Shown one piece after another: positions 2,982-19,605 of a stretch of 45,712 bases of DNA. Numbering within the stretch: the first letter of the stretch is position 1; every line of letters begins with the position of its first letter. The position numbers were made by a program, and so were the translations under genes. The notes beneath the pieces are model-generated. The model was given only the letters and a program-made list of their open reading frames with translations, was not told where the DNA came from and did no database searches. This DNA is from a virus: IMG/VR virus record IMGVR_UViG_3300032322_002184, positions 1 to 45,712 of that record, one strand, 5' to 3'.

Positions 2982-3000
2982 CAAACAAGGGAACACCCCA

Positions 3001-3642: not shown

Positions 3643-3645
3643 ATC

Positions 3646-4057: not shown

Positions 4058-4108
4058 TATGCTGAAAAGCGCATAGTATAATAAATGTTAAAATAAATGT
4101 TGTTAAGT

Positions 4109-4388: not shown

Positions 4389-4462
4389 CTTTCGTTATCA
4401 TTGATGGGAATGTGTTCGCCCTTATAGTTACACACCATCCACACAGTTCCTAACAGTAACTC

Positions 4463-4639
4463 ATGAGCACTTCGTTGATGATCAATGCACTTCGCCTCGG
4501 TAACACTGGGCACGAGATCTTGAACATTCTAGATGCACTCGTGTCTGATGACAAGTCTACCACATCTGACAGTGATTGTCAAGTCGTTTATAATGCTGCT
4601 GGCAAACAGTTGGCAACAGTGGAGACTGTGCAGTTCTAA
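4463..4639 (+). CDS. Small unknown protein (58 aa)
   Basis: The frame encodes MSTSLMINALRLGNTGHEIL and ends ATVETVQF, 58 aa, after the DnaA-box region. The first half is an amphipathic helix and the second is polar with a short strand. It has base composition like the upstream small genes, not like the AT-rich island downstream. No family recognised. It is the last gene of the early block. Confidence 0.5.
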   Translation: MSTSLMINALRLGNTGHEILNILDALVSDDKSTTSDSDCQVVYNAAGKQLATVETVQF

Positions 4640-4658
4640 GCAGTTCTTATAGTTATTC

Positions 4659-4710
4659 ACCCCGTTCGTTCATTGTCACTTATTGACAGTGTTTGGGCGG
4701 GGTTTCTTAT
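4659..4710 (+). terminator. Possible terminator after the early small-gene block
   Basis: ACCCCG (4659-4664) can pair with CGGGGT (4698-4703), with an inner hairpin TGTCA/TGACA (4674-4678 and 4684-4688), followed by a short T-rich tract. The stem has unpaired internal stretches and the T tract is interrupted, so this is a weak call. Confidence 0.35.
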
Positions 4711-4785
4711 AGCCCTGGCGGGCGATGCCTAAAGCTAAAAACGCTAACTACCCTAACCTACAACGAACCAAAAACGCGAAAGAGA

Positions 4786-4916
4786 TATAAGGTGTTTCAA
4801 AAAATTTTTCAGGTATAAGAAATTCGTAGAGGTATTATAAGGTATTTCAAAAAATTTTTCAGGTATATATACTACTATAGGGATTTCAATAAATCACAAA
4901 TTTTTTTTCGAGGTAT
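4786..4916 (+). repeat. Triplicated leader repeat ahead of the SGNH gene cassette
   Basis: A 31-bp unit, TATAAGGTGTTTCAA followed by AAAATTTTTCAGGTATA, occurs at 4786-4816 and again at 4836-4866 with one mismatch, exactly 50 bases apart. A third, diverged unit runs from TATAGGG (4876) to AGGTATAAA. Its AGGTAT (4911-4916) is again exactly 50 bases after the previous one and serves as the ribosome binding region of the gene at 4919. Each unit holds an A-tract/T-tract junction, probably bent DNA. It could be a promoter or protein-binding array; the rest of the 4640-4785 gap shows nothing else clear. Confidence 0.7.
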
Positions 4917-4918
4917 AA

Positions 4919-5698
4919 ATGCATTATAACATTTTATTCAATGGGTGTAGTTTTACCGATGGTTCAGAGCTCGAAGGAATTGATAACGATTTAGAGCATA
5001 AAAAAACTCATAGGTTTTCTCATTTGGTTGCTGAACACTATGGTAAGACTTATATAAATATGGCATTAGCTGGAAAAAGTAATGATTGGATTATAGAGCA
5101 AACTATAAATTGGCTTGAAGATGGAAATACTTGTGATTTGGCAGTCATTCAATTTACAGATGAACGAAGATTTCTGTTATATTATGATGATGATGATCAT
5201 AAAAAAGATATACGACCAAAACAATATGATGTTATGGGACCAATGAGACAATATAAGAACCCTATCTTGCAGCAGGTATTAAATTCTAGTGAGGTTAATG
5301 AAAAACGTTTAGTAGCAAACATATATTTTAAAAATATATACACTAGATTTATGGGACAACAACAATATTATAAAAATTTATTTTTTGTTAATAATTATTT
5401 TAAAAGTAAAAATATTCCTATAATTTTTTTAAAAATGAAAGAAGAAGTAAGTAAAGATTTTGGATGGAAACTTCTTTGCAAAGATATAAAAATAAAAAAT
5501 ATGGGAGGAGATATTCTACCGTCTTGGTCTAGTGATAAAGAAGAAAAAAAATATTATTGTATGGATTATACTCACAAATACAACCATAACAAAGAACAGC
5601 GGTTTGTACATTTAAGTGGAGCTCATCCAAACGAATTAGGACATCAAAAAATTGCAGATTATATTATTTCAGAAATAAACAATGCAAATCTCATATGA
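4919..5698 (+). CDS. SGNH/GDSL-hydrolase-like protein, paralogue 1 (259 aa)
   Basis: Block I is NGCSFTDG with the nucleophile Ser11. Block III is GKSNDWI with Asn55. The C-terminal block V is AHPNELGHQKIADYI with His236. These are the landmarks of SGNH hydrolases, which cleave or transfer acyl esters on lipids and glycans. The Asp normally three residues before the His is Ser233 here, so a Ser-His dyad or altered chemistry is implied. No signal peptide, so it acts in the infected cell's cytoplasm. It is first in a cassette of five paralogues, starts right after AGGTATAA, and is very AT-rich compared with the genes upstream. Closest paralogue here is 8154-8927 (shared SELEGI motif). Confidence 0.75.
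   Translation: MHYNILFNGCSFTDGSELEGIDNDLEHKKTHRFSHLVAEHYGKTYINMALAGKSNDWIIEQTINWLEDGNTCDLAVIQFTDERRFLLYYDDDDHKKDIRPKQYDVMGPMRQYKNPILQQVLNSSEVNEKRLVANIYFKNIYTRFMGQQQYYKNLFFVNNYFKSKNIPIIFLKMKEEVSKDFGWKLLCKDIKIKNMGGDILPSWSSDKEEKKYYCMDYTHKYNHNKEQRFVHLSGAHPNELGHQKIADYIISEINNANLI
5632..5671 (+). repeat. 40-bp direct repeat, copy 1 (3' end of SGNH paralogue 1)
   Basis: The 40 bases from CGAATTAGGACATC onward, coding ELGHQKIADYIIS, are identical to 6361-6400 in the next paralogue. The interval is 729 bases, close to one gene length. Confidence 0.9.
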
Positions 5699-5704
5699 AG
5701 ATTG

Positions 5705-6415
5705 ATGCATTATAATTTATTATTTTGCGGTTGTAGTTTTACTGAAGGACTATTTCCTGATAGTCGATTTTCCCATTTAGTATCGGATCATTTTAAATAT
5801 ACTCACGATAATATTGCGAAACATGGAATAAGTAATGATAAAATTGTAGAAAAAACAGTTGAATGGTTTGAAGCAGACAACACTGCAGATATTGCCATCA
5901 TACAATTTACACACAAAGCAAGAATAACTTGGTATAATACGTTTGAAGAAGAATTTGATTTTGCACCTGGAATTTTAAAAAACAAACAATACTTAAATAT
6001 ACCAGAAGTGTTTGATTACTTTTTGATCAATAATATTTGGAATGTTATTAGACAATATTATGAATTAATTTACTCTGAATATATGGGAGATCAAAATTTT
6101 TATAAAAACTTATTTGTCTTAGATAATTATTTTAAACAAAAAAATATAATACCCATTTACTTAACAATATGCAAAGCACCTCTACCAAATAAAGGTTGGT
6201 ATAAATTTTGTAAAGATATTAATATTCAACACATTATTCATGGAGGAACAACTGGGCATCCTGTATTAAATCCTGATAATAATAGTTTGATTGGTAATCC
6301 ACAAACAAATCCAGAAAATTTTGATGCTGAGTTATCAAAAATATCAAGAATTGGTCCAAGCGAATTAGGACATCAAAAAATTGCAGATTATATTATTTCA
6401 AAAATTAAAATTTAG
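5705..6415 (+). CDS. SGNH-like protein, paralogue 2, catalytic His replaced (236 aa)
   Basis: Block I is CGCSFTEG with Ser11, and a GISNDKIVEKT block III follows. In block V the family's HP is GP: the protein reads RIGPSELGHQKIAD with Gly217 where paralogues have the catalytic His. A later His (GH) remains. It is therefore probably inactive as a classical hydrolase, or uses another residue. The gene starts seven bases after paralogue 1; ATG 5705 is preferred over TTG 5702. The last 40 coding bases around ELGHQKIADYIIS are identical at DNA level to paralogue 1, which indicates recent duplication or gene conversion. Confidence 0.7.
   Translation: MHYNLLFCGCSFTEGLFPDSRFSHLVSDHFKYTHDNIAKHGISNDKIVEKTVEWFEADNTADIAIIQFTHKARITWYNTFEEEFDFAPGILKNKQYLNIPEVFDYFLINNIWNVIRQYYELIYSEYMGDQNFYKNLFVLDNYFKQKNIIPIYLTICKAPLPNKGWYKFCKDINIQHIIHGGTTGHPVLNPDNNSLIGNPQTNPENFDAELSKISRIGPSELGHQKIADYIISKIKI
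6361..6400 (+). repeat. 40-bp direct repeat, copy 2 (3' end of SGNH paralogue 2)
   Basis: Identical to 5632-5671. The rest of the two genes differs widely at DNA level, so the perfect identity is local. Confidence 0.9.
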
Positions 6416-6429
6416 AACTTGTATAGATT

Positions 6430-7452
6430 ATGAGTAATAGTAAAAAACCATTTATATTTGGTTGTGGTGCTGGGTGGTGTGGAACAACTTCACTGTACAT
6501 GACTTTGGTTGAGAATGGATATCTTCATGGAGGATTTACAAAAGAAGATACATTTTTAAGTAATCTCTTTAGAGAACCTCAATTAAATGATAGAGATTAT
6601 AATAAATTTTTGAAGCTCATTACGTATAGTGAAGAAATTCGATTTGGAGCACCATATACAAGAATTCAAGATGGAGTTGTTGTTGATGTATGTAATACCG
6701 AAAAATATTTAAGTCCATTACGCAAATTTACTAAATCCCAATTAGAATATATTTTTTCATTACCATTGACAGCAGAAAAATATATTGAGTACCATACCTT
6801 ACTGTCTGAGTATAGTGATGATTTTTTTGCTGCCACTGGAGATTTCAATAATACAAATTTCATCGATTTATGGGAATATGAGCAACAATGTGATTTGATT
6901 ATTAATAAATTAAGTGAAACTCATAATATTAAATTTTTGATGATATTAAGAGATCCGATCAGAGCTTTCTTTTCTGTTGCCAATTCACAATTTTACAGGG
7001 AAAAAATACCTAATATTACTAAGTATAACTCCGTTAAAGAATATATGTGGGAACAAGCGGATGTTTATTTAAACAATCCAATCAATCCTTGGCATGATTA
7101 TGGGAAGGTTGCAAAAAAATTTAAAGATAAATTTGGAAACAATTTCCATTATGTCATTATGGAAGATTTTTTTAGTTCTCAAAATAATGAAGTGCAGCGA
7201 TTAGAGAAATTTCTTAATACAAAGATTACTAGCATTTATCCTTGTAGCTTTGTTCCAGATAAAGGGGTACACGCTTTAAGAGACGGGAGAAAGTCAGTAT
7301 TAGTAGATCAGTGGAATAATGATAAAGAAAAATTATCTGATGAGTTGTATCTATTCATTAAAAGACATATGCAAGAAGTCTATGATGAATTTGAAGACTT
7401 ACATGGAGGTTTACCTAACGATTGGGGAATACCAATTGATTATGGATACTAA
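6430..7452 (+). CDS. Sulfotransferase family protein, copy A (340 aa)
   Basis: Near the N-terminus FGCGAGWCGTTSLYMTL (residues 10-26) forms the PAPS 5'-phosphosulfate loop. The KE pair at 38-39 follows at the position typical of the heparan-sulfate-type family. RDPIRAFFS, with Arg174-Asp175-Pro176, is the PAPS 3'-phosphate motif. Such enzymes move sulfate from PAPS to a sugar, lipid or tyrosine hydroxyl. The C-terminus ends HGGLPNDWGIPIDYGY and is nearly shared with the minus-strand paralogue 10798-11769. There is no signal or membrane anchor, unlike Golgi enzymes, so it is cytosolic. It sits between SGNH paralogues 2 and 3, so it probably works on the same substrate (inference). Confidence 0.8.
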   Translation: MSNSKKPFIFGCGAGWCGTTSLYMTLVENGYLHGGFTKEDTFLSNLFREPQLNDRDYNKFLKLITYSEEIRFGAPYTRIQDGVVVDVCNTEKYLSPLRKFTKSQLEYIFSLPLTAEKYIEYHTLLSEYSDDFFAATGDFNNTNFIDLWEYEQQCDLIINKLSETHNIKFLMILRDPIRAFFSVANSQFYREKIPNITKYNSVKEYMWEQADVYLNNPINPWHDYGKVAKKFKDKFGNNFHYVIMEDFFSSQNNEVQRLEKFLNTKITSIYPCSFVPDKGVHALRDGRKSVLVDQWNNDKEKLSDELYLFIKRHMQEVYDEFEDLHGGLPNDWGIPIDYGY

Positions 7453-7528
7453 AATGAAAATATAATGATGAGGTTCCAGATTTCATTAAACCAGGACATA
7501 TAACTAAAAGAGGTTTCATAAGATTATA

Positions 7529-8164
7529 ATGCACATATTATTTAATGGATGTTCATACACCTGGGGAGATGAATTAGAGAATAGACTTGAAGATCGTTTT
7601 AGTACACTTGTTGCTAATCATTATCAAGCAGAACATGCTAACATTTCTGATTGTGGACGAAGCAATGATGCAATCGCTCGCACAACAATGGAATGGTTTG
7701 CAGATGGTAATACGACAGATTTAGCAATTATTCAATGGACGATCATTTCTAGATTTGAAGGTTATGATGATTTAAACAAACATTACTTTCATGTAACTGT
7801 TGATAAAAAAAGCAAATGGGAACATTTTTATAAGAATTATTATTATGATCAATTAGGAGTTGATTGTTTATTTAAAAACTATTATTTGTTAGAGCAGTTT
7901 TTTATAGCAAATAAGATTAAATATATTTTTATATTTCACGATTGTTGGAGTAATACGATTATAAATTTAGATAATGTATGGAAAAAATTTATTGTTAAGA
8001 AAGATTTTCATTTCTTAAGAGGAATGTTTTCTCAAAATTGCATCTTAATAAATCCATTGATTGATGATTGTCATTTTAAAGGAACCAAAGGTGGGCATCC
8101 AAACACATTAGGACATCAAGCAATTTCTAATTACCTCATCAAGGAGATAAACAATGCATTATAA
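7529..8164 (+). CDS. SGNH/GDSL-hydrolase-like protein, paralogue 3 (211 aa)
   Basis: Starts MHILFNGCSYTWGDELE, with nucleophile Ser9 in the GCSYT block. GRSNDAIARTT is block III and GGHPNTLGHQAISNYL is block V with His190. The residue three before the His is Lys, not Asp. It is the shortest of the intact members. The 3' end overlaps the next paralogue by 11 bases. The 76 bases before it hold no clear promoter. AGAGG at 7509-7513 is rather far from the ATG for a ribosome site. Confidence 0.75.
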   Translation: MHILFNGCSYTWGDELENRLEDRFSTLVANHYQAEHANISDCGRSNDAIARTTMEWFADGNTTDLAIIQWTIISRFEGYDDLNKHYFHVTVDKKSKWEHFYKNYYYDQLGVDCLFKNYYLLEQFFIANKIKYIFIFHDCWSNTIINLDNVWKKFIVKKDFHFLRGMFSQNCILINPLIDDCHFKGTKGGHPNTLGHQAISNYLIKEINNAL

Positions 8165-8927
8165 TCTATTATTCAATGGGTGTAGTTATACTCAAGGATC
8201 AGAACTTGAAGGAATTAATAAGGATTATGAGTATCGTAATCGTCATCGTTATAGTCATATTATAAGTGAAAGATTAGGAAAAACTTATGATAATATTAGT
8301 GTTGGAGGTGGTAGTAATGATCGTATTGTAAGAGAAACACTACATTGGTTTAATTCAGGAAATACATGCGATTTGGCAATTATCCAATGGACAGAAATTA
8401 CTAGAATAGAATACATATCCGCATATGCTGAACACCCTGTTAGTTTCAATCCTGAGTTCGTTGTTACTGAATGGAAGGGATGGGACAATGACACACCAAA
8501 AATCAAAAAAGATCATGAAGAAACTAAACTAGCACATGAGCATTTTTATAAGTACTTTTATAATTCTGCACTGGGAATTCATAATTTTTATAAAAACTTG
8601 TATATATTAGAACAATTTTTTGAAAAAAATAATATTAATTACTATATGATAAAATTATCACCAATTTTTTTGTGGGGGCGGAGGTTGAATCATAGCATAT
8701 GTCCAAGTGATAATCCAAATCACTATACAAATTTTTTTTGGGAAACTTTATGCAAACATGATTTTTTTAGTATTTCTTCCATTAGAAATACTATGATTAA
8801 TATTCAGGATAAAGAAAATTTTACTCCAAAACATTTAGGACATCGATTTTTAACTGGAACACATCCTAGTGAACTGGGACATCAAAGAATAGCAGATTTT
8901 ATTATCAATAAAATTGACACTAAATAA
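8154..8927 (+). CDS. SGNH/GDSL-hydrolase-like protein, paralogue 4 (257 aa)
   Basis: Starts MHYNLLFNGCSYTQGSELEG with Ser11. GGGSNDRIVRET is block III (Asn55). THPSELGHQRIADFI is block V with His237, and Thr replaces the usual Asp. It aligns with paralogue 1 with identical spacing over the first 60 residues. Of the five it keeps the most classical layout together with paralogue 1. It overlaps paralogue 3 by 11 bases, so they are translationally coupled. A Trp-rich middle (EWKGWDND) differs from the others and may shape substrate choice. Confidence 0.75.
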   Translation: MHYNLLFNGCSYTQGSELEGINKDYEYRNRHRYSHIISERLGKTYDNISVGGGSNDRIVRETLHWFNSGNTCDLAIIQWTEITRIEYISAYAEHPVSFNPEFVVTEWKGWDNDTPKIKKDHEETKLAHEHFYKYFYNSALGIHNFYKNLYILEQFFEKNNINYYMIKLSPIFLWGRRLNHSICPSDNPNHYTNFFWETLCKHDFFSISSIRNTMINIQDKENFTPKHLGHRFLTGTHPSELGHQRIADFIINKIDTK

Positions 8928-8947
8928 ATTTACTTATTACAGATATT

Positions 8948-9589
8948 ATGCACGTCAATATTTTTTCTAATGGTGATCAAGCTTTACATTGTGGTGGATG
9001 CGATGCTGAGATTGAAAAGGAAGATCACTATATTACACTAATTGGAAAAGCATTGAATAAGACTTATGAAGATATTTCTTTTAATGCTGCTTCAAATGAT
9101 CAAATAGTAAGAACAACAATCGATTGGTTTGAAAGTGGCAATACAGCAGACTTTGCAATCATTCACTTTACAGAAGATTTTAGAGTTGAATATATTGCAG
9201 GATATGATGATTATCAAACATGCACTCCATTTGGAGTAAAAAATCATCAATGGCCACTTGATAAGTATAAAGACCTTGATTATTATTATGAAAACATCTA
9301 TAATCCATTTATAGGTAGTGATAACTTTTATAAAAATCAATTTCTTTTAGAACTTTATTTTGAAAAGAAAAATATTCCATATTTCTTTTTAAAATTGATG
9401 AACTTTCCTACACCATCACCATGGAAAACTTGGTGTAAAATTGAACGTTTAACCGCAACTTGCTATGCTGGTGGATTGATTGATAGTGTGGAAAATAAAC
9501 CAGAAAATTATCACCATCATCATCCATCAGAAAAGGGACATCAAATTATTGCAGATTATATTTTAGATAATATTAGAGATCAATTTTAA
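8948..9589 (+). CDS. SGNH-like protein, paralogue 5, nucleophile lost (213 aa)
   Basis: The N-terminus aligns with the other four (MHVNIFSNG), but the GCS of block I reads GDQ, so the nucleophile Ser11 is Gln. The rest of the fold is kept: AASNDQIVRTTIDWFESGNT for block III and HHHHPSEKGHQIIADYIL for block V, with a run of four His. This is best read as a pseudoenzyme or binding subunit. It has no frameshift and is in tandem, so it seems maintained. The His run might bind metal (speculation). It is four bases before the radical SAM gene at 9593. Confidence 0.7.
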   Translation: MHVNIFSNGDQALHCGGCDAEIEKEDHYITLIGKALNKTYEDISFNAASNDQIVRTTIDWFESGNTADFAIIHFTEDFRVEYIAGYDDYQTCTPFGVKNHQWPLDKYKDLDYYYENIYNPFIGSDNFYKNQFLLELYFEKKNIPYFFLKLMNFPTPSPWKTWCKIERLTATCYAGGLIDSVENKPENYHHHHPSEKGHQIIADYILDNIRDQF

Positions 9590-9592
9590 GTC

Positions 9593-10801
9593 ATGGAAAA
9601 CAAAGTAATTTGTCCAATGCCTTTTATGAAGATCTATAATAACTTAGATGCTTCTGCATATACTCCATGCTGTTGGTCAAATCATTGGACTGATGAAACC
9701 AATGATATTACAAATACTTTGCCATTAGAACATTTTACTGGTGAAGTGTTTAGTCGTATTAGAAAAGAAATGTTAGAAGGTGAAAAAACAGAACTTTTAA
9801 AAGAATATTGTAATACCTGTTGGATGAGAGAAAAAGACTTTGGACATTCTCCTAGAATGAAGTTTAATGAATTTATTGATTATGATGTTTATCAAAATTT
9901 TGATCACAATGGAAGAATAATTGATAATGATGAAAGATTTATTCAAGTAGGAATAAATGTTTATGGAAATCATTGCAATTTAGAATGTTATGAGTGTTTG
10001 CCAGATAATTCTTCTTCTAGATGTGCTGTAATGAACAAACTTGATGATCCCAAATTAAATGAACAGTTTGTTTATGATCCTAAACGTGTAAAATCTTTTA
10101 ATAAATTATCTAAAGAACATTTTAGAAATATTGTTGATGAAATCGTATCTTACGGCAAAAAAATTCGCAGTATCGATGTTGTTGGTGGAGAACCGATGCT
10201 TATGAAAGATCACTTTTATCTTTTAGACAAATTGATCGAAAGTGGACATTCTAAAAATATAGAAATCAACTATACATCAAATATGACACTAATGACAGTA
10301 TCAAAAATGAAAAAATATTTTGATAATTTTTGTCACATTAGAATTCAATGGAGTATTGATGCATTGAAAGAAAGAAATTACTGGTTAAGATATCCTACTA
10401 ATTGGGATCAAACTATACAAAATTGTGAGGAAGTAAGAGATTATTTGATTAAGACTGGAAAGGGAACAATTCAAGGCACACTTACGCCAAGTTTGTTTAG
10501 TATAATCACTCTTAAAGAAACATATGATTGGTTACTGGTCAACGATTATGTTCTTCTCGATCAAATGCCTATGAATACGATTGATAATCCAAATTTCTTA
10601 AGTCCTCAACACTTACCACAGGAACTAAAAGAAAAGATTGCTCCAAAGATTTCAACATTATCAAAGATACATTATAATCAATTGATGTCTGAACGAGATG
10701 AAGATTGTTTTGAACTAGCCATTCAATATGCAGATAATTTAGATAACATGAGAGGAACTGACTGGAAAACAACTTTTCCAGAAATAGCACAATACGCTTA
10801 A
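9593..10801 (+). CDS. Radical SAM protein, copy A (402 aa)
   Basis: The CxxxCxxC cluster CNLECYEC (Cys128, 132, 135) binds the 4Fe-4S cluster that cleaves S-adenosylmethionine. VVGGEPMLMKDH matches the GGEP SAM-binding strand. An N-terminal Cys set (Cys7, Cys26-Cys27, Cys73, Cys76) looks like an auxiliary cluster domain of the twitch/SPASM sort, placed before the core. The C-terminus ends RGTDWKTTFPEIAQYA. Proteins of this kind occur in cyanophages without a known substrate. It is a full-length paralogue of 13865-15076. It converges with and overlaps by four bases the minus-strand sulfotransferase. Confidence 0.8.
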   Translation: MENKVICPMPFMKIYNNLDASAYTPCCWSNHWTDETNDITNTLPLEHFTGEVFSRIRKEMLEGEKTELLKEYCNTCWMREKDFGHSPRMKFNEFIDYDVYQNFDHNGRIIDNDERFIQVGINVYGNHCNLECYECLPDNSSSRCAVMNKLDDPKLNEQFVYDPKRVKSFNKLSKEHFRNIVDEIVSYGKKIRSIDVVGGEPMLMKDHFYLLDKLIESGHSKNIEINYTSNMTLMTVSKMKKYFDNFCHIRIQWSIDALKERNYWLRYPTNWDQTIQNCEEVRDYLIKTGKGTIQGTLTPSLFSIITLKETYDWLLVNDYVLLDQMPMNTIDNPNFLSPQHLPQELKEKIAPKISTLSKIHYNQLMSERDEDCFELAIQYADNLDNMRGTDWKTTFPEIAQYA

Positions 10802-11769
10802 TATCCATAATCGATAGGTGATCCCCAATCTGCAGGTAAACTACCATGAAAATTTTCAAATTCTAAGTATTCCTTCTTAAAATCTTCTCTTTCTCTATAC
10901 CTGTTGTACATTTCTGAAGTTAAAATATGATGATCAGAATCCCATTGATCTTTCAAGTATTGGTCATCCTTTGGTGCATTAATTCCTTTATCTGGTACAT
11001 AGCAGCAAGGATACATTTGATCTATTTTAATACTCAAAAAATTTTCTAATTTTTCCTTTTCTTTTTGATTATTTGGATTATATAAATCTTCCATAATTAA
11101 ATAACAAACATTTTCTTTACCAAAAACTTTGTAATAAGTATTAATTTTAGATACAAAATTCATAATGGCAGATTTTTCAAATGACTTAATTATATCACCT
11201 GTTGTGTATTTAAAATTGAAAGAGTGTCTTGCTGTAAGATAGTAAAAATTTCTTGTTTCATCTAGATTAGTAAAAGATCCTGCATGTGACCATGCTCTTC
11301 TAATAGGATCTCTTAAAGAAACAAGACACTTAATCTCAAAATATTTTGACATTTTATTCACTATTTCTATAAGATTTTGTTCACTCAACGTCATTGATAT
11401 GTTAGAAAAATCTCCAACTGCTTGGTAATTTCCTTCAAGATATTGATATAAATTTAAATAATATTTAATATACTTTTCTAAAGACTTTGATGGTCCGAGA
11501 ATATAATTAAAATCTTTCTCAGTAATTTTGTTTAGTACCCCATGAGGATCTCTTTTATCATCAAAATTTCCGCATAATAATAATTTTTCCAAAAAAGAAT
11601 TATAAGTATCTAATTTTACATTATTAGTTTCATTAATATAAAAAGTATGCAACGCTTGAATTTCTTTAGTTGGTCCTGTATGGACATACTTCATATTTTT
11701 TAACGTATGATAAAGTGATGTAGTTCCAGACCATCCAATACCCAAAGAAAAAATAAATTTAGGTTTCAT
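10798..11769 (-). CDS. Sulfotransferase family protein, copy B, minus strand (323 aa)
   Basis: SLGIGWSGTTSLYHTL (residues 8-23) is the PAPS 5'-loop and TGPTKEI contains the KE pair (35-36). LRDPIRRAWSHAGSF (Arg153-Asp154-Pro155) is the 3'-phosphate motif. The C-terminus HGSLPADWGSPIDYGY nearly equals that of the + strand copy. It is the only minus-strand gene in the window. It converges on the radical SAM gene with a 4-base overlap and diverges from the HNH gene across 68 bases (11770-11837), which must hold promoters for both. Inversion or separate insertion would explain the orientation. Tandem or inverted paralogues could sulfate different acceptors. Confidence 0.8.
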   Translation of the reverse strand: MKPKFIFSLGIGWSGTTSLYHTLKNMKYVHTGPTKEIQALHTFYINETNNVKLDTYNSFLEKLLLCGNFDDKRDPHGVLNKITEKDFNYILGPSKSLEKYIKYYLNLYQYLEGNYQAVGDFSNISMTLSEQNLIEIVNKMSKYFEIKCLVSLRDPIRRAWSHAGSFTNLDETRNFYYLTARHSFNFKYTTGDIIKSFEKSAIMNFVSKINTYYKVFGKENVCYLIMEDLYNPNNQKEKEKLENFLSIKIDQMYPCCYVPDKGINAPKDDQYLKDQWDSDHHILTSEMYNRYREREDFKKEYLEFENFHGSLPADWGSPIDYGY

Positions 11770-11837
11770 TTATATCCATCTATTGTCCCATTTAAAATTT
11801 ATTTATAGATACTATTGGAACTCTCCATTAGAAATAA

Positions 11838-12227
11838 ATGCTACTCTCTTCCCCAGATGAGTATCTTTATCAATTACAAGCGAGCAGTAAGGCAGACGCA
11901 ATAAGATTATGGAGAAAAGCGATCAAGGAAGCATGGAATAACTGTTGTGCATATTGTGGACAAAATAAAGATCAGATGACAATTGATCATGTCATCCCAC
12001 AATCATTAGGTGGCACAGACGAATTAATGAATGTAGTTTGTTGCTGTGAAGATTGCAACCGCGATAAGTCACATACTGAAGTTGAAATTTGGTATTTTCA
12101 ACAATACTTTTTTTCTCAAGAAAGATGGGATATAATAGAACAGTGGCGAACACCAAAATCAAATGGTTCAAAAAAAAGATATATAAGAGGTAAGAATGGT
12201 ATTCCAACAAAATCAGTGGTACAATGA
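11838..12227 (+). CDS. HNH endonuclease (129 aa)
   Basis: CAYCG (Cys37, Cys40) and CEDCNRDKS (Cys70, Cys73) form the zinc ribs. TIDHVIPQSLGGTDELMNVV carries the Asp50-His51 catalytic pair and the Asn of the HNH finger. The basic C-terminus (SNGSKKRYIRGKNG) may add DNA contacts. Free-standing HNH nucleases in T4-like phages often act as homing enzymes that spread themselves and flanking DNA. It lies in the island at the switch in gene direction. The stop overlaps the next ATG. Confidence 0.8.
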   Translation: MLLSSPDEYLYQLQASSKADAIRLWRKAIKEAWNNCCAYCGQNKDQMTIDHVIPQSLGGTDELMNVVCCCEDCNRDKSHTEVEIWYFQQYFFSQERWDIIEQWRTPKSNGSKKRYIRGKNGIPTKSVVQ

Positions 12228-12382
12228 CATATAACGTATACATTGATCAAATGATTGCATTTGAAAATCTTACAAAAGAGGATGCTGAAGATCGCGCAAA
12301 ACAAATTCAACAAATGATTTCTGCTGGTATTCCAACTCACTACACTACTGAACAAATTAAAGTATTGGAGATTAAACAATGA
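12224..12382 (+). CDS. Small unknown protein (52 aa)
   Basis: The frame encodes MTYNVYIDQMIAFENLTKED and ends IKVLEIKQ, mostly helical and charged. Start and stop overlap the genes on each side by four bases (ATGA), so it is part of a coupled chain HNH - this - next small gene. No family recognised. Confidence 0.5.
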   Translation: MTYNVYIDQMIAFENLTKEDAEDRAKQIQQMISAGIPTHYTTEQIKVLEIKQ

Positions 12383-12477
12383 ACCCGATTGCAAAACTAA
12401 TTAGATGGATTAAAGGTGAATACAAATTGTGGAAACTTAGGCAGCAAGATCCTTACATTTATGAAGATGAAGATTGA
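12379..12477 (+). CDS. Very small basic/acidic protein (32 aa)
   Basis: The frame encodes MNPIAKLIRWIKGEYKLWKL, an amphipathic basic helix with Trp residues, and an acidic tail ending IYEDED. The helix could lie on a membrane surface. The start overlaps the preceding stop and the gene ends two bases before the carbamoyltransferase start, so translation coupling is plausible. It is short enough that the call relies on packing and composition. Confidence 0.45.
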   Translation: MNPIAKLIRWIKGEYKLWKLRQQDPYIYEDED

Positions 12478-12479
12478 AC

Positions 12480-13865
12480 ATGATTGGTATAAGTGAAGGA
12501 TTTCATGATGCTGCAATATCAGTAGTAAATGCTGGTAAGATTAAGTTTGCTGCTCATGCAGAACGATATTCTAGAGTAAAGCATGATAAACATCTAAATC
12601 TATCAGTATGTGCAGAAGCACTGCTTCATACTGAAGATGATGTTGTTGCATTCTATGAACGTCCTTGGTTGAAGCGTACTCGTCAATTGTTTGCTGGACA
12701 ATATAAGAGTGCATTTAAAGAAAGAAATATCTACATCACTCCTAATCATTATTACTCACATCATCTCTCCCATGCTGCTGCAGCATTTCAGACATCACCC
12801 TATCCAGAAGCTGCATGTGTTGTCGTAGACAGTATTGGTGAATGGGATACTGCTTCAATCTGGCACGCTCAGATGGTGGAGGGATGTGCTAAGTATAAAA
12901 AAGTATGGTCACAGAAGTATCCTAAGTCTATAGGATTGTGGTATTCTTCTTATACGAAATGGGCAGGTTTGAGACCCTTAGACGAAGAATACATCTTTAT
13001 GGGTATGGCAGCGTTTGGGAAACCCTTATACGTCGAACAAGCGCGTAACTTGCTCTCTAGAAATAACCACAAGGGCTTTTCCACCTCTCTTGAAGGAAAT
13101 CCAGAAGACAACTCTAAGAGTGCAGAGGTTGTTCTTTATGGGGCACTGAAAAAAATTTTCAATAGAGCAAGGCAATATAGTAATAATATTTGTTATGGAG
13201 GAGGGGTTGCTTTAAATTGCGTCGTAAACGCTAAGCTACAAAACGAGCATCCGTTCATGTGGATTATGCCTAATCCTGGAGATGCTGGAGCTTCCTTAGG
13301 GGCAGCTTTATTGTCCTATGGTGGTAAAGTCATCTTCACCCCATATTTGGGTGAAAACATTCAAAAAACGATTGACCCAAAAGAAGTTGTTGACGCATTA
13401 CTTCACAAAGGCATGTGTGGGGTTGCGAATGGTCCTGCTGAGTTTGGACCACGGGCTTTGGGTAATAGAAGTCTTCTAGCGGATCCTAGAACTCTTAGGA
13501 TGAAAGATTTAGTTAACACAGTAAAGAAGAGACAAAAGTTTCGTCCATTTGCTCCTGCCATATTAGAAGAACATTGTCAGGACTATTTTCGTATGCCACC
13601 AGACAGTCGTTATATGTCATTTGTATACGACTGTAAGCGTCCTGATGAGATCCCAGCATGTGTACACGTAGATAATACTGCTAGGGTTCAAACAGTTCCC
13701 ACATGGTCTTCTAGTATTCTTAGAGAAATACTTGAGTGTTGGTACGAACGTACAGGTTGCCCAGTTCTTTTAAATACGTCTTTAAATATTCGCGGAATGC
13801 CTATCGTCAATACTTGGCAAGATGCAGAACAGTTTTCAGAAAAGTATGATGTTGAGGTTTTTTAA
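12480..13865 (+). CDS. Carbamoyltransferase, NodU/CmcH family (461 aa)
   Basis: Transfers a carbamoyl group from carbamoyl phosphate, via carbamoyl-adenylate, to a hydroxyl on a sugar or small molecule. Family landmarks are MIGISEGFHDAAISVV, AERYSRVKHDK, HHLSHAAAAFQ, a GGGVALNCVVNAKL strand, MPNPGDAGASLGAAL, then the C-terminal domain FGPRALGNRSLLADPR and KKRQKFRPFAPAIL, ending in LLNTSLNIRGMPIVNT. It is shorter than most NodU or TobZ proteins, chiefly in the middle. The frame opens at TTG 12474 but ATG 12480 matches the family start. Its base composition is less AT-rich than the SGNH and radical SAM genes on either side, so it may have a separate origin. Stop and next start share one base (TAATG). 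Confidence 0.88.
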   Translation: MIGISEGFHDAAISVVNAGKIKFAAHAERYSRVKHDKHLNLSVCAEALLHTEDDVVAFYERPWLKRTRQLFAGQYKSAFKERNIYITPNHYYSHHLSHAAAAFQTSPYPEAACVVVDSIGEWDTASIWHAQMVEGCAKYKKVWSQKYPKSIGLWYSSYTKWAGLRPLDEEYIFMGMAAFGKPLYVEQARNLLSRNNHKGFSTSLEGNPEDNSKSAEVVLYGALKKIFNRARQYSNNICYGGGVALNCVVNAKLQNEHPFMWIMPNPGDAGASLGAALLSYGGKVIFTPYLGENIQKTIDPKEVVDALLHKGMCGVANGPAEFGPRALGNRSLLADPRTLRMKDLVNTVKKRQKFRPFAPAILEEHCQDYFRMPPDSRYMSFVYDCKRPDEIPACVHVDNTARVQTVPTWSSSILREILECWYERTGCPVLLNTSLNIRGMPIVNTWQDAEQFSEKYDVEVF

Positions 13866-15076
13866 TGGAAAATAAAGTTTTTTGTTCAAAACCATTTAAA
13901 GAAATATTCAATCATCCAGAATTAAATTATGCTCCTTGTTGTTGGGCTTATCCTGCGTCTAAAGAAAATCCAAATACTCGTTTACCAATCGATCATTTTA
14001 ATGGTGAAGATTTCAAAAGGCTTAGAAGAGAAATGCTTCAGGGCAAAAAAACAGATTTTCTATGTTCTTACTGCAAATATTGTTATGATAGAGAAGATGA
14101 AAATATAGAATCTCCAAGAATGAAAAATGCCAATATTAGTAAGACTATATTGGATAGTTTTAATGCTGATGGATCATTAAAACCTAATCAAAATAAATTT
14201 ATTAATATTGCAATAAATGCGTATGGTGACAATTGCAATTTAGAATGTTACGGATGCAACCCACTTGTATCCACCTCCAGAAAAAGTGCAATGGATAAAT
14301 TGCACAATCAAATTATTGACAACAATATTGATATTTTAGATTTTTATGGTAATCTTAAATACAAATGTTTTGATAAAAGTGAAAGTGTTAAATTTGAAGA
14401 TATTGTAGATCAGATAGTAGAATATGCTGACAATATTTCCTCGTTGACAATTGTTGGTGGAGAACCAATGTTAATGAAAAAGCATTTTATATTATTGGAC
14501 AAATTAATAGAAGTTAATAAATCTAGAAACATTACTTTAAATTATGTTTCAAATATGACTTTGATGAATTTAAATAATATGAAAATTTATTTTGAAAATT
14601 TTTCAAAAACAAATATTCAATGGAGTGTTGATGCATTAGGAGAAAGGAACTATTGGTTAAGATATCCAACCAATTGGGAACAAACAACAAAAAATGTTTT
14701 TGAAATTGAAAAATATTTTAATACTTATAAAAAAGGATCTATTTTTGCAACTATTACTCCAAGTATGCTTGGAATTATAACTTTGAGAAAAACTTATAAT
14801 TGGTTGTTGACTAGGAATTTAATTAATAAAAAAGATCCAATTATTAATTTAATGGTTAAACCAGAACTATTAAGAACAAGAAATTTACCAGAAGAAATAA
14901 AAAATAATATAAAATATGATATAAAGATTATTTCAGAATTACATTATGAGGATTTAATTAAACCAAGAAATGACACCCAATTTAAATTAGCAATAAAATA
15001 TTTTGATTTATTGGATAAATCTAGAGGAACAGATTGGAGATCCACATTTCCAGAAGTTGCAAAGTATGCAAATTGA
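13865..15076 (+). CDS. Radical SAM protein, copy B (403 aa)
   Basis: Paralogue of 9593-10801 along its whole length. CNLECYGC (Cys124, 128, 131) is the SAM cluster site and VGGEPMLMKKH the SAM-binding strand. N-terminal Cys7, Cys25-Cys26, Cys67, Cys70 and Cys73 form the auxiliary cluster region. Its end, RGTDWRSTFPEVAKYAN, mirrors copy A. It is coupled to the carbamoyltransferase by a one-base overlap. Two copies within about 3 kb, separated by unrelated genes, suggest duplication with functional split. DNA is far more AT-rich than the carbamoyltransferase it follows. Substrate unknown. Confidence 0.8.
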   Translation: MENKVFCSKPFKEIFNHPELNYAPCCWAYPASKENPNTRLPIDHFNGEDFKRLRREMLQGKKTDFLCSYCKYCYDREDENIESPRMKNANISKTILDSFNADGSLKPNQNKFINIAINAYGDNCNLECYGCNPLVSTSRKSAMDKLHNQIIDNNIDILDFYGNLKYKCFDKSESVKFEDIVDQIVEYADNISSLTIVGGEPMLMKKHFILLDKLIEVNKSRNITLNYVSNMTLMNLNNMKIYFENFSKTNIQWSVDALGERNYWLRYPTNWEQTTKNVFEIEKYFNTYKKGSIFATITPSMLGIITLRKTYNWLLTRNLINKKDPIINLMVKPELLRTRNLPEEIKNNIKYDIKIISELHYEDLIKPRNDTQFKLAIKYFDLLDKSRGTDWRSTFPEVAKYAN

Positions 15077-15093
15077 CATTATCTAAATAACGT

Positions 15094-15117
15094 GGTATCA
15101 TGCCTTTGGGTGATACC
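15094..15117 (+). promoter_or_regulatory. Hairpin ahead of the glycosyltransferase gene
   Basis: GGTATCA (15094-15100) and TGATACC (15111-15117) form a perfect 7-bp stem with a 10-base loop. No T tract follows, so it is not a classic terminator. It lies in the 75-base gap before the gene at 15152 and could be a processing or regulatory structure. Confidence 0.4.
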
Positions 15118-15151
15118 CGTTTACGTAAACAAATCAAATTGAAGTATATTC

Positions 15152-15913
15152 ATGGCAAAAGGTTTTAAAGTGGTTACAAAACCACCCACATCATCTTCTA
15201 ATAATTCAGACGGTTTTAATTTAGAAGAAACAAAAAAAATGATTAAAGACAAAAGTATTGTCTTTTGTCTTCCTGGTAGAGGAGTTTCATATACATATCT
15301 TAAAAATTTTGTACAACTTTGTTTTGATCTGGTTCAGAATGGTGCTTCGATCCAGATCTCACAAGACTATTCTTCGATGGTCAACTTTGCCCGCTGTAAG
15401 TGTCTTGGTGCTAATGTCCTTCGTGGTCCTGATCAACTTCCTTGGGATGGTAAACTAAAGTACGATTACCAACTTTGGATCGATAGTGATATTGTATTCA
15501 ACACAGAATCGTTCTACCGTCTTGTATGGATGGATAAAGATATTTCCTGTGGTTGGTATGCGACCGAAGATGGAGTAACAACATCAGTTGCACATTGGCT
15601 TGAAGAAGACGATTTCAAGAACAATGGTGGTGTTATGAACCATGAAATGGTTGATGGCATTCAAAAGCGTCGTAAACCATTTACTGTAGATTATACAGGG
15701 TTTGGTTGGACACTGATCAAACATGGCGTCTTTGAACATCCAGAGATGAAATATCCTTGGTTTGCACCTCAGATGCAAGTTTTTGAATCGGGAGAAGTTC
15801 AAGATATGTGCGGTGAAGATGTTTCATTCTGTCTAGATGCTATCAAGGCAGGATTTGAAATTTGGTGTGATCCAGTCTGTCGAGTTGGACACGAGAAGAC
15901 ACGAGTAATCTAA
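15152..15913 (+). CDS. GT-A type glycosyltransferase (253 aa)
   Basis: A cytosolic glycosyltransferase with a nucleotide-sugar-binding alpha/beta fold. The DxD metal motif is LWIDSDIVF (Asp111, Asp113). SIVFCLPGRGVSYTYLKNF begins the first strand and a conserved Ser/Asp-rich loop ISQDYSSMVNFARCKC follows. The C-terminal CGEDVSFCLDAIKAGFEIW and RVGHEKT supply the acidic and His residues common in this fold. The first 30 residues are a low-complexity polar tail. It is less AT-rich than copy B upstream. Cyanophages often carry one such gene. It probably glycosylates a surface polymer or phage protein; the acceptor is not visible. Confidence 0.75.
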   Translation: MAKGFKVVTKPPTSSSNNSDGFNLEETKKMIKDKSIVFCLPGRGVSYTYLKNFVQLCFDLVQNGASIQISQDYSSMVNFARCKCLGANVLRGPDQLPWDGKLKYDYQLWIDSDIVFNTESFYRLVWMDKDISCGWYATEDGVTTSVAHWLEEDDFKNNGGVMNHEMVDGIQKRRKPFTVDYTGFGWTLIKHGVFEHPEMKYPWFAPQMQVFESGEVQDMCGEDVSFCLDAIKAGFEIWCDPVCRVGHEKTRVI

Positions 15914-15945
15914 TATAATAAGTAGTATTTTGTGTCGAATTACAC

Positions 15946-16110
15946 ATGGAGAAATACGATATATATTGTCAGGGGAGAAAAATTTACTCTTCCGTAACGG
16001 AAGAAGAAATGTTGGATATCACGCAAGAACTTGCTGATCAATTCTATACAAATGGTACTCCCCATCCTGACGATATTGTGGTAGAATATCTTGGTTACGA
16101 CGTTGAATAA
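15946..16110 (+). CDS. Small conserved-type unknown protein (54 aa)
   Basis: The frame encodes MEKYDIYCQGRKIYSSVTEE and ends VEYLGYDVE, acidic with an alpha/beta outline. The layout of short strand, helix (EEEMLDITQELADQFY) and strand is the sort of small protein commonly seen in cyanophages next to the baseplate genes. It precedes the basic protein at 16114 by three bases. Function unknown. Confidence 0.55.
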   Translation: MEKYDIYCQGRKIYSSVTEEEMLDITQELADQFYTNGTPHPDDIVVEYLGYDVE

Positions 16111-16113
16111 ACT

Positions 16114-16257
16114 ATGGCATTGAAAAAATCTTTGAGTGGTTCAAAAATTATTGAATCATCTCCAAAAAATACTCGTCAGGGACGCTCTAAAAACACAAAA
16201 ATTTCTGCGACAAGTAGAAATTGTGCTAAAAAGCGTTACAGAGGTCAAGGAAAATAA
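16114..16257 (+). CDS. Small highly basic protein (47 aa)
   Basis: The frame encodes MALKKSLSGSKIIESSPKNT and ends CAKKRYRGQGK. Roughly a quarter of its residues are Lys or Arg, with many Ser and Gly. It is a likely nucleic-acid binder or virion-associated peptide, by composition only. Immediately downstream of 15946-16110 in the same direction. No membrane segment. Confidence 0.55.
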   Translation: MALKKSLSGSKIIESSPKNTRQGRSKNTKISATSRNCAKKRYRGQGK

Positions 16258-16307
16258 TTCGTAATTAATAAGTTGGTTTGAATTCCACTTCACATCATTT
16301 ATCGAAG

Positions 16308-16442
16308 ATGGAGTTTATCCATACAGACAATAGAATATGCTTATCAACAGTATTAATGTCCTTGATGGTAACATCAGCAGTGATAAAATTGACTGATGCT
16401 TCTATCACTATAGATAAATTATTATCAACATATAAAAAATAA
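16308..16442 (+). CDS. Possible small hydrophobic peptide (44 aa)
   Basis: The frame encodes MEFIHTDNRICLSTVLMSLM and ends KLLSTYKK, with one hydrophobic stretch (LSTVLMSLMVTSAVIKL) that could span a membrane. The ribosome site is weak. It ends ten bases before the strong terminator. The call depends on size and the hydrophobic run, so it may not be real. Confidence 0.35.
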   Translation: MEFIHTDNRICLSTVLMSLMVTSAVIKLTDASITIDKLLSTYKK

Positions 16443-16452
16443 GGTATACATA

Positions 16453-16480
16453 AGACAGGAGATATCTCCTGTCTTTTTTT
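16453..16480 (+). terminator. Strong intrinsic terminator before the 207-aa gene
   Basis: A perfect palindrome spans 16453-16474 (AGACAGGAGAT and its complement) and is followed by a run of seven T (16474-16480). It should end transcripts that come from the island and small genes, separating them from the tail module. Confidence 0.8.
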
Positions 16481-16486
16481 ATTTTT

Positions 16487-17110: not shown

Positions 17111-17132
17111 GCGATAGAAACCGCTATAAAAG

Positions 17133-17154: not shown

Positions 17155-17161
17155 TACTAAA

Positions 17162-17302
17162 ATGGAATTTCAGGAGCAAAAAACTCACAATTTAATTATT
17201 CAGAACAAACTTCATGAAAAAATTCGTAATGATGAGGATTATGATGACTGGGAATATGGAACAGAACCCAGTTATGGAATGCCTATAAATACGAATAAAT
17301 AA
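17162..17302 (+). CDS. Small acidic unknown protein (46 aa)
   Basis: The frame encodes MEFQEQKTHNLIIQNKLHEK and ends GMPINTNK, 46 aa. It begins with a helix and has an acidic, aromatic middle (DEDYDDWEYG). The end of the gene contains the TATAAATA late box that serves gp25. No family recognised. Confidence 0.5.
   Translation: MEFQEQKTHNLIIQNKLHEKIRNDEDYDDWEYGTEPSYGMPINTNK
17284..17291 (+). promoter_or_regulatory. T4-type late promoter box before gp25
   Basis: TATAAATA is the exact T4 late promoter core. It lies 30 bases before the gp25 start and overlaps the 3' end of the small gene at 17162. No -35 is expected in this class, since the phage-encoded sigma factor and sliding clamp act instead. 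Confidence 0.55.
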
Positions 17303-17320
17303 ACGAAGATCCTATAAAAA

Positions 17321-17725
17321 GTGCCTCTTCAAAAAATTTCTAGAGGTTTCAAAGACATTTCATTGTCAATGAAACGTCATCCAGTTACAAATGATATCCT
17401 TCCTCTAAAAAATGAGGATGCAATCAAGCGTTCTGTTCAAAATTTAGTAAGAATTCAAGTTGGAGAGGTCTTTTTTAACAATCTAATTGGCACTAGAATT
17501 AGTGGAGCACTATTTGAATTAGCAACAAGCGATTTTACTGCTCCAATAAAAACCGAAATTGAAACTGTTATTACAAACTTTGAGCCAAGAGTTGTACTAA
17601 AAAGCGTTGAAGTTGATCCAGATCCTGATAATAATGCTCTAGAAGTCACAATATCTTATGACATAGTTGGTTTATCAACGCCTACACAGACAGTTACCTT
17701 CATCTTAGAACCAACTAGACTATAA
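17321..17725 (+). CDS. gp25: Baseplate wedge protein gp25 (134 aa)
   Basis: Contains the gp25/lysozyme-like baseplate fold: GFKDISLSMKRHPVTNDI, the IKRSVQNLVRIQVGEVFFN helix and the beta-rich second half ending TQTVTFILEPTRL. T4 gp25 has a similar length. It joins the wedge core that triggers sheath assembly and is related to the T6SS wedge protein TssE. The start is a GTG at 17321 without a strong ribosome site. The stop overlaps the gp6 start by one base (TAATG). The order gp25 - gp6 is conserved in T4-like phages. Confidence 0.9.
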   Translation: MPLQKISRGFKDISLSMKRHPVTNDILPLKNEDAIKRSVQNLVRIQVGEVFFNNLIGTRISGALFELATSDFTAPIKTEIETVITNFEPRVVLKSVEVDPDPDNNALEVTISYDIVGLSTPTQTVTFILEPTRL

Positions 17726-19605
17726 TGGCACTAACACAATTTACAAATTTAAATTTTGAGGATATAAAATCCTCAATTAAGGATTATCTAAGAGCAAATA
17801 CAAACTTTACAGACTATGACTTTGAAGGATCTAATCTTTCAGTCATCATAAATTTGCTTGCATATAATTCTTATATCACCGCCTACAATACAAACATGGT
17901 GGTGAATGAAACTTTTATTGATTCTGCAACATTGCGTGAGAATGTTGTATCTCTTGCACGCAATATTGGATATGTACCACGATCAAAACGTGCTGCAAAA
18001 GCAACTGTAGACTTTTTTGTTAGTGGAATTTCTACAACAACAGATACAATTTCATTCCAACCAGGGGTTGTTGCGAATGGAAGTGTTTCGGATGTCAATT
18101 TTATCTTTTCTCTACCAGAAAAAGTTACTGTAGCAGCGCAAAATGGGTCTTCTTTTGGTAGTTTAGAAATTTATCAAGGTCAATATTTAGAAAATTCTTG
18201 GACAGTTAATAATTCTCAACCAAATCAGCGTTATATTATCCCAAATGATAGTGTTGATACTTCAACTTTGCGCGTAAAAGTAAAAAATACGTCTACAGAT
18301 ACAACTTTTACCGAGTATCAACTCGTCGATAATATCCTTGGTATCACTTCTACATCAAATATTTACTTAATTCAAGAAACTACAGACGAAAAATACGAAA
18401 TTTTGTTTGGTGATGGTATTTTTGGTAAGAAATTACAATCAGGAAACGTAATTACTGCATCTTATATTAAGACAAATGGCAAAGATGGTAATGGAGTAAC
18501 TGATTTTAGGTTTGCTGGAACAATTTTTGATGAAAATAACGCAAATATAACCTCATTTACCGCTGATTTAACAGCACAAGTACCATCTGAAAACGGAGAT
18601 GAGATAGAACCTGTCGAAAGTGTCAAATACTTTGCCCCTAGACTGTATTCATCTCAGCATAGAGCAGTAACTGCAAGTGATTATGAGGCAATTTTACCAA
18701 CATTGTATCCAAATATTGAAAGTGTGAGTGCTTATGGTGGAGAAGATCTAACTCAACCCCAATATGGACGAGTTTTTATTGCTGCTAAACCAAGAAATGG
18801 ATCTTTCTTATCAGATTTCACTAAAAAGCAACTTTTACAATCCTTAAAAAACTATTCTGTTGCTGGAATTGTTCCTCAGTTTGAGGACTTAAAGTATCTT
18901 TATGTAGAAATTGACAGTTATGTTTACTATAACGCAAATTTTGTTGGTGATCCAAATAATCTGAAAACTGATGTTATTTCTGCAATTACTTCTTATGCTA
19001 GAAGTTCAGAAATGAACCAATTTGGGGGAAGATTTAAATATAGTAAAACCTGTTCACTGATTGATAACGTCAATACTGCTATTACTTCAAATATTACAAC
19101 AGTAAGGATTAGAAGAGATCTTGTTGCACGTATAAATCAACCCGCACAATATGAATTGTGTTTTGATAATGAATTCTATACAGGTAAGAAAAATTATAAT
19201 GTTAAGAGTACAGGATTTAGCGTATTTGGTATAGATGGTACATGTTATTTTTCTGATGAAGTCGTAAATGGATCTAATATCGGAAATCTTTTCCTTTTCC
19301 AAATTCTTTCCGATGAAGAGACGAATATTTTATCAACCAAATTTGGAACAGTCAATTATAGCACTGGTGAAATCCTTATAGATACTGTAAATATTACATC
19401 AACCAGTTTAGCAGACAATATTATTGAAGTTCAAGCAATTCCACTATCAAATGATGTTTTAGCGAGAAAGGAATTGTATTTGCAATTAGATGTTTCTAAG
19501 AGCAATTTCTACATGAAGCAAGATAGCATCTCTTCAGGTGCAAATACTTCAGGAACAAGATTTGATATTCAATCAAGCTATCAAAACGGTAAGAAAACAA
19601 GATAA
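17725..19605 (+). CDS. gp6: Baseplate wedge protein gp6 (626 aa)
   Basis: Starts MALTQFTNLNFEDIKSSIKD and includes GSNLSVIINLLAYNSYITAY, the N-terminal wedge domain, and the long VPRSKRAAKATVDFFV region. Two gp6 copies form the inner ring of each T4 wedge; the J-like family has a similar order. Length is close to T4 gp6 (660 aa). The middle (FAPRLYSSQHRAVTASDYE) matches the J-like conserved segment. It is coupled to gp25 and followed after three bases by the next structural gene. High certainty from sequence and position. Confidence 0.92.
   Translation: MALTQFTNLNFEDIKSSIKDYLRANTNFTDYDFEGSNLSVIINLLAYNSYITAYNTNMVVNETFIDSATLRENVVSLARNIGYVPRSKRAAKATVDFFVSGISTTTDTISFQPGVVANGSVSDVNFIFSLPEKVTVAAQNGSSFGSLEIYQGQYLENSWTVNNSQPNQRYIIPNDSVDTSTLRVKVKNTSTDTTFTEYQLVDNILGITSTSNIYLIQETTDEKYEILFGDGIFGKKLQSGNVITASYIKTNGKDGNGVTDFRFAGTIFDENNANITSFTADLTAQVPSENGDEIEPVESVKYFAPRLYSSQHRAVTASDYEAILPTLYPNIESVSAYGGEDLTQPQYGRVFIAAKPRNGSFLSDFTKKQLLQSLKNYSVAGIVPQFEDLKYLYVEIDSYVYYNANFVGDPNNLKTDVISAITSYARSSEMNQFGGRFKYSKTCSLIDNVNTAITSNITTVRIRRDLVARINQPAQYELCFDNEFYTGKKNYNVKSTGFSVFGIDGTCYFSDEVVNGSNIGNLFLFQILSDEETNILSTKFGTVNYSTGEILIDTVNITSTSLADNIIEVQAIPLSNDVLARKELYLQLDVSKSNFYMKQDSISSGANTSGTRFDIQSSYQNGKKTR

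Follow-up and report, generated by a model that had tools for sequence, protein, structure and literature searches.

What might a marine phage do with a compact island of sulfate, acyl-ester, carbamoyl and radical chemistry placed upstream of its baseplate genes? The question is raised by IMG/VR virus record IMGVR_UViG_3300032322_002184, a complete record of 45,712 bases that we refer to as the window. Judging from its genes, the window virus is a 45.7-kb fragment of a marine T4-like (cyanophage-type) phage. The island spans about 4919-15076 and holds five SGNH paralogues, two sulfotransferase paralogues, two twitch radical SAM paralogues, an HNH endonuclease and a NodU/TobZ-type O-carbamoyltransferase (CARB). 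The island genes listed in an earlier note on this DNA are all present as closely packed open reading frames, each with its start and stop codon. Comparison with related phages indicates that whole cassettes of these genes are replaced between conserved flanks. The reading that we favour, with about an even chance of being right, is that the island serves to exclude rival phages by decorating a glycan, most likely the surface polysaccharide of the infected cell.

A fixed site with exchangeable content

Viral contigs scanned with single proteins gave no matches, and alignments were needed. Scans were made with the radical SAM alignment, with the sulfotransferase alignment and with GT, a core gene to the right of the island, as a less biased sample; the loci obtained were mapped with iterated profiles. 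In the synteny search proposed in the earlier note, dozens of independent contigs had the same families at one recurrent site, upstream of GT-gp25-gp6. Such recurrence places the island beyond chance. The gene order is an SGNH/sulfotransferase array, often with an HNH gene, followed by CARB, SGNH and/or radical SAM genes, GT, gp25 and gp6. The arrays are compact, with a median same-strand gap of 20 nucleotides and 43% of genes overlapping.

The distribution of the island was read from a gp6 tree with 104 distinct rows, gp6 itself lying outside the island. One clade, supported at 100, comprises 68 rows, and CARB lies near GT in 57 of these; the remainder consists of four rows with only SGNH/sulfotransferase genes and seven with too little upstream sequence. 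None of the 36 rows outside the clade, 17 of which are readable, carries island genes. Island genes served as seeds in two of the three scans, which biases the proportion of carriers; the absence outside the clade rests on the GT scan and on reference phages. At 60% identity the 67 unique CARB sequences, among them those of remote phages, fall into six clusters, whereas the SGNH proteins form 98 clusters and the sulfotransferases 59. By this comparison, CARB is a near-constant anchor, and the SGNH and sulfotransferase genes are hypervariable.

Exchange can be seen between near-identical phages. The window and its sister contig L160 share 93% nucleotide identity over 12,224-25,912 and 84% over 3,565-5,161, but at 5.16-11.8 kb there are only short paralogous matches of 66-80%. 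The exchanged part relative to L160 is about 5160-11800; HNH, CARB, the second radical SAM gene and GT lie on the better-conserved right side. Compared with contig L015, the window encodes proteins that are 99.2% (gp6), 98% (GT) and 93% (CARB) identical, yet none of seven array genes reaches 80% identity. L014 and L090 have 100% identical gp6 and no array gene in common (0/7), and L012 and L010, also with identical gp6, have about a quarter of the array in common. An exchangeable array around a constant carbamoyltransferase thus replaces the single combined pathway that had been supposed from the window. The HNH gene (11838..12227, plus strand; PF14279 at 2.2e-13) is close to the right edge of the exchanged segment, and we guess from this position that the nuclease perhaps helps cassette exchange.

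The conserved right flank is formed by gp25 and gp6 (17321..19605, plus strand), and rightward from 17,321 these are followed by a gp7-like gene, gp8 and more baseplate genes of T4-like cyanophage type. 'Marine virus AG-345-D19', a single-cell virus, is the nearest named relative, with protein identities of 72% for gp8, 69% for gp6, 70% for gp25 and 84% for GT. Its carbamoyltransferase (L001:5819-7196) is split by what looks like a frameshift, probably introduced in error during amplification or assembly. A small methyltransferase-like gene in the window (44622-45140), adjoining a large fibre-like gene, resembles one beside the AG-345-D19 island. At the left border, G+C falls sharply from about 42% (window 1-4900) to 28% (5000-12000). 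Immediately left of the island, at 4109-4388, the DnaA-box-like sequence TTTTCCACA occurs seven times within 280 bases. The whole window has eight copies against 1.1 expected, a number reached in none of 100 shuffles, and comparable clusters stand at the matching place in L010, L012, L160, L162 and L163. This region is possibly a replication origin or a DnaA-binding region.

Some islands hold further genes. Amidinotransferase-like genes are found in L001 (2585-3904), L024, L025, L029, L113 and L153, with a phmmer match of 4e-9 to arginine:glycine amidinotransferase. HpcH/HpaI aldolase-like genes occur in L142 (12187-12942), L144, L145, L099 and L105, several of them with cupin/2-oxoglutarate-oxygenase-like genes nearby.

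Enzyme families and their active sites

Because the sulfotransferase and SGNH calls are weak from sequence alone, both families were modelled from alignments of the window proteins with their IMG/VR relatives. The two window sulfotransferases (6430..7452, plus strand, and ST2, 10798..11769, minus strand) score under the Pfam cut-off when searched singly, and the family profile matches the sulfotransferase 3rnl at 8e-8. The ST2 model has a predicted local distance difference test score (pLDDT) of 86.7. Its 28 best PDB matches are all sulfotransferases, with E-values down to 8e-6, and include a bacterial sulfotransferase, tyrosylprotein sulfotransferases and heparan sulfate 3-O-sulfotransferases. 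At the level of the model, this confirms the fold of the sulfotransferase superfamily, whose members depend on 3'-phosphoadenosine 5'-phosphosulfate (PAPS). The 3'-phosphate-binding Arg-x7-Ser motif, seen as RDPIRAFFS in the first window protein, is well kept, with R153 in 146 and S161 in 144 of 153 sulfotransferases. A scan of bacterial genomes with sulfotransferase patterns found no relative, so that a host origin of the family is unsupported within the reach of the patterns used.

The SGNH proteins likewise give weak matches by sequence (DUF6071). The fourth (8154..8927, plus strand) was modelled with a pLDDT of 89.1, and the model matches GDSL lipases, CE2 carbohydrate esterases, acetyl-xylan esterases and TesA in the PDB. 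The SGNH fold is confirmed in this modelled protein, from which the family fold is extended to the first (4919..5698, plus strand). Block I Ser11 and block V His237 occur together in 183 of 200 unique SGNH sequences; for block III (GxND), Arg84 (196/200) sits at about the expected place, and Asn55 is near-invariant (195/200). No stretch of the SGNH alignment was sufficiently conserved for a pattern scan. In the window, Ser and His are both kept in three of five copies, namely the first, the third (7529..8164, plus strand) and the fourth. The second (5705..6415, plus strand) has Gly for the block V His and the fifth (8948..9589, plus strand) is without the nucleophile Ser; from these substitutions the two copies look catalytically impaired.

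The radical SAM, carbamoyltransferase and HNH identities are secure by profile matching. The radical SAM proteins (9593..10801, and 13865..15076 within the conserved right flank; both plus strand) score 250 and 244 bits against NF033640 (N_Twi_rSAM), which has a curated cut-off of 170, and they carry the CxxxCxxC cluster motif as CNLECYEC and CNLECYGC. A viperin-like antiviral role for them was rejected, since their scores (29 and 27 bits) fall short of the cut-off of 180. In CARB (12480..13865, plus strand) the N and C Pfam carbamoyltransferase domains score 171.6 and 102.4 bits (cut-offs 27 and 24), and the protein matches PHROG 1601 at 1.7e-90. Like NodU and TobZ/GdmN, it has both domains and the HHxSH motif, with E-values of 3e-33 to 2e-42 to solved members. 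It is shorter than these enzymes (461 amino acids), and its NodU equivalog score of 122 bits is far under the cut-off of 1000. We assign CARB to the NodU/TobZ-type family and predict that it carbamoylates sugar hydroxyls.

The enzyme list of the earlier note therefore stands for these families, with the reservation that two SGNH copies lack a catalytic residue. Its glycosyltransferase does not belong to the island. The protein concerned, GT (15152..15913, plus strand), is PHROG 1574 (T4-GC 102 in S-SSM7), and it is 79-81% identical beside gp25 in cyanophages without the island, where small genes fill the upstream region. Since this core gene is also found in island-free phages, it was moved to the flank, and by this comparison the island ends at about 15076. 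GT is possibly a glycosyltransferase, with a DSD motif; the label is weak by sequence, and a search for solved-structure relatives found none. A hydropathy scan revealed no transmembrane or signal-like stretches in the island proteins (top 19-residue averages of about 0.5-1.1), and they are therefore taken as cytosolic.

CARB and SGNH genes are also paired elsewhere. The second of two bacterial-genome scans gave 16 loci with CARB relatives, and an SGNH-family gene adjoins CARB in 14, in Actinomycetota, Reyranella, Verrucomicrobiota, Collimonas and others; some contigs of metagenome-assembled genomes among them may be phage. In contig L237, radical SAM, SGNH, CARB and Sulfotransfer_2 genes stand between a galactosyltransferase-type gene on their upstream side and, after them, genes for an epimerase and an RmlC-type protein. 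A subfamily of 36 rows in the CARB tree (98/98) mixes phage and bacterial rows, and the SGNH neighbourhood is widespread in it, not clade-pure. This distribution indicates that the pair is older than the island-bearing phage clade. Other phage groups (L042-L089, e.g. L042:4659-12470, L057 and L075) carry twitch radical SAM genes in tandem, up to eight to an array, often accompanied by carbamoyltransferase and SGNH genes; the L057 array is near tail genes. In L075, a 251-kb phage contig, an APS kinase gene (15265-15696; PF01583, 4e-17) adjoins the radical SAM array and a sulfotransferase-like gene lies downstream, a possible phage-encoded supply of PAPS.

These data bear on the idea that the array is mainly a landing pad on which mobile genes, some of them decaying, collect: a homing HNH and duplicated cassettes without a shared function. 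The HNH gene near the exchange border and the two SGNH copies without catalytic residues would fit it. The retention of Ser and His across the SGNH family and of the 3'-phosphate Arg and Ser across the sulfotransferases speaks against it, as do the presence of CARB in nearly all readable clade members and the CARB-SGNH pairing in other phyla. We consider a landing pad very unlikely.

Timing of expression and likely target

The late promoter motif of cyanophages is NATAAATA (PMC2984593). We counted loci with this motif within 120 bases upstream of a gene and compared them with expectation. The motif precedes gp25 in 98 of 110 loci, where 7.5 were expected. Counts are near expectation (in brackets) for the sulfotransferases, 5/137 (4.9), CARB, 4/60 (2.7), and GT, 4/119 (7.0), and slightly above it for SGNH, 15/179 (7.1), and radical SAM genes, 4/29 (1.2). 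In the window, the motifs TATAAATA and AATAAATA at 17284..17301 (plus strand) open the gp25 late operon. Since the motif marks gp25 but hardly the island genes, the late operon seems to begin downstream of the island. Individual island genes may be exceptions, because the window has a TATAAATA motif at 11807 (minus strand), 38 nucleotides upstream of the ST2 start, and another late-promoter motif inside the first SGNH gene.

This timing matters for the proposal that the island decorates a glycan of the virion (on tail fibre or baseplate), altering adsorption or shielding the particle. The island has the baseplate operon and GT, the glycosyltransferase-like core gene, as its direct neighbours, and distant phages have radical SAM, SGNH and CARB genes beside tail-fibre-like, baseplate-like and putative glycosyltransferase genes. 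Against this, the late promoter that marks gp25 is mostly missing from the island genes, the core GT is present in island-free phages too, and exchange occurs between phages with near-identical baseplate genes. We regard a virion target as unlikely.

Decoration of the infected cell's surface is favoured because of the swapping of content, the near-absence of late promoters and the presence of nucleotide-sugar genes in the same clade. In five clade records a GmhA-like gene lies near a gene for a CMP-sugar synthetase, and the synthetase was found in none of five non-island phages. Epimerase/dehydratase genes occur in four clade records, and in AG-345-D19 a sulfotransferase gene overlaps the CMP-sugar synthetase gene. 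A glycan is preferred as the target because the fold neighbours include heparan sulfate 3-O-sulfotransferases, CE2 esterases and acetyl-xylan esterases. Photosystem reaction-centre proteins are encoded by two other members of the clade, so that at least part of it probably infects cyanobacteria.

We propose that, before the late genes are expressed, cytosolic PAPS-type sulfotransferases, SGNH acyl-esterases or acyltransferases, the NodU-type carbamoyltransferase and the twitch radical SAM enzymes would modify a carbohydrate, most likely a precursor from which the infected cell makes O-antigen or capsule. CARB would provide the common step, and SGNH and sulfotransferase cassettes would be swapped by recombination between the conserved flanks, perhaps aided by the HNH nuclease. 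The changed surface would block the binding of competing phages. Remodelling of the surface against competitors, already suggested in the earlier note alongside altered virion glycans and a small molecule, remains the best fit to these data, and we still infer the sugar substrate, the surface location and the superinfection exclusion.

Several observations weigh against surface decoration. The island has no nucleotide-sugar, flippase or export gene, two of the five window SGNH copies are probably impaired, and most clade records are fragments. The position that we take, from motif reading, to be that of the 5'-phosphosulfate-loop Lys (or Arg) is Trp in 115 and Lys in 3 of the 153 sulfotransferases; despite the conserved 3'-phosphate Arg and Ser, catalytic activity is for this reason only probable. 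The CARB-SGNH pair in actinomycetes stands in two cases near genes of nonribosomal peptide synthetase type, which is a small-molecule setting. The pair has a condensation/AMP-binding protein and a P450 nearby in Streptomyces hoynatensis, and an AMP-binding/PP-binding/thioesterase protein in Antrihabitans.

These actinomycete loci raise the further possibility that the island enzymes synthesise or tailor a small molecule (a modified sugar or amino-acid metabolite) acting on competitors or on host physiology. A secondary metabolite is also one option offered by Iyer et al. for other cyanophage carbamoyltransferase clusters (PMC7824862), and carbamoyltransferase, GDSL hydrolase, sulfotransferase and amidinotransferase occur together in the sxt cluster (PMC2679770). 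We nevertheless give this explanation a low probability. No ketosynthase was matched in 14 clade records, many of them fragmentary, other assembly enzymes not being searched; no exporter was recognised in the window; and fast paralogue exchange suits antigenic variation better than a fixed pathway.

The surface reading can be carried further, more tentatively. The island may be a combinatorial decoration locus, in which a constant carbamoyltransferase works with sulfotransferase, SGNH and radical SAM cassettes drawn from a freely exchanged library. Each strain would then mark the infected cell (or virion) chemically in its own way, and near-identical phages would exclude different competitors. 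This would be comparable to serotype conversion, here with small-group chemistry in place of sugar transfer. If surface decoration is correct, some marine T4-like phages compete for host cells through exchangeable sulfate, acyl and carbamoyl decorations, and superinfection exclusion at the cell surface becomes testable in them. The arrays would also offer new sulfotransferases and SGNH enzymes as a natural library, and would define a carbamoyltransferase-SGNH gene pair common to phages and several bacterial phyla.

Comparison with known systems

The saxitoxin cluster includes the carbamoyltransferase SxtI and a nearby GDSL hydrolase, SxtL, for which addition and removal of a carbamoyl group have been proposed (PMC2679770). 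The likeness to our island is one of gene content, the ketosynthase of a polyketide core having found no match in 14 clade records, and it is not evidence of a toxin; toxin synthesis was considered solely for this resemblance to the sxt tailoring genes and is not supported. A closer parallel is the jumbo cyanophage (S-SSM6a) cluster of carbamoyltransferase, 2-oxoglutarate-oxygenase and halogenase genes, proposed to decorate the capsule or to make a metabolite (Iyer et al. 2021, PMC7824862). It too is a phage cluster built around a carbamoyltransferase. Its enzyme is of a different branch (36% identity to CARB over 60% of the query), and no array of sulfotransferase, SGNH and radical SAM genes is described there.

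The position of the island also has precedents. The cyanomyovirus gp46-gp25 hot spot (2010, PMC3037559) is the same insertion neighbourhood upstream of gp25, matched here on the gp25 side, whereas gp46 was not seen in the record, no search aimed at it having been made. The hot spot was described for small, mostly hypothetical genes, unlike the array of tailoring enzymes found here, and in S-SSM7 only small genes stand next to gp25. The host recognition cluster of pelagimyophages is hypervariable like the island, and its glycosyltransferases and radical SAM cassettes have been interpreted as changing the host surface (PMC7029224). That cluster lies between VrlC (gp7) and gp14 with tail fibres, whereas the island lies upstream of gp25-gp6-gp7 without them, and identity of the two was rejected on position. 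The lipopolysaccharide clusters of P-SSM2-type cyanophages are likewise thought to change the host surface against other phages (PMC2984593, PMC7824862). They make and transfer sugars, with nucleotide-sugar synthesis and several glycosyltransferases; the island would only tailor, and nucleotide-sugar genes are found elsewhere in the clade genomes.

The earlier note knew of no description of such a combined phage pathway. The general idea is in fact published (PMC7824862, PMC7029224, PMC2984593). The open-access literature, most subscription journals lying outside the search, gave no paper joining sulfotransferase, carbamoyltransferase and cyanophage, and sulfate, acyl and carbamoyl chemistry together in cyanophages is not described in what was searched. 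Surface-remodelling islands are thus a kind already known in T4-like marine phages; what appears to be new is the composition of the array, its constant carbamoyltransferase anchor, its swapping between near-identical phages and the pairing of carbamoyltransferase and SGNH genes.

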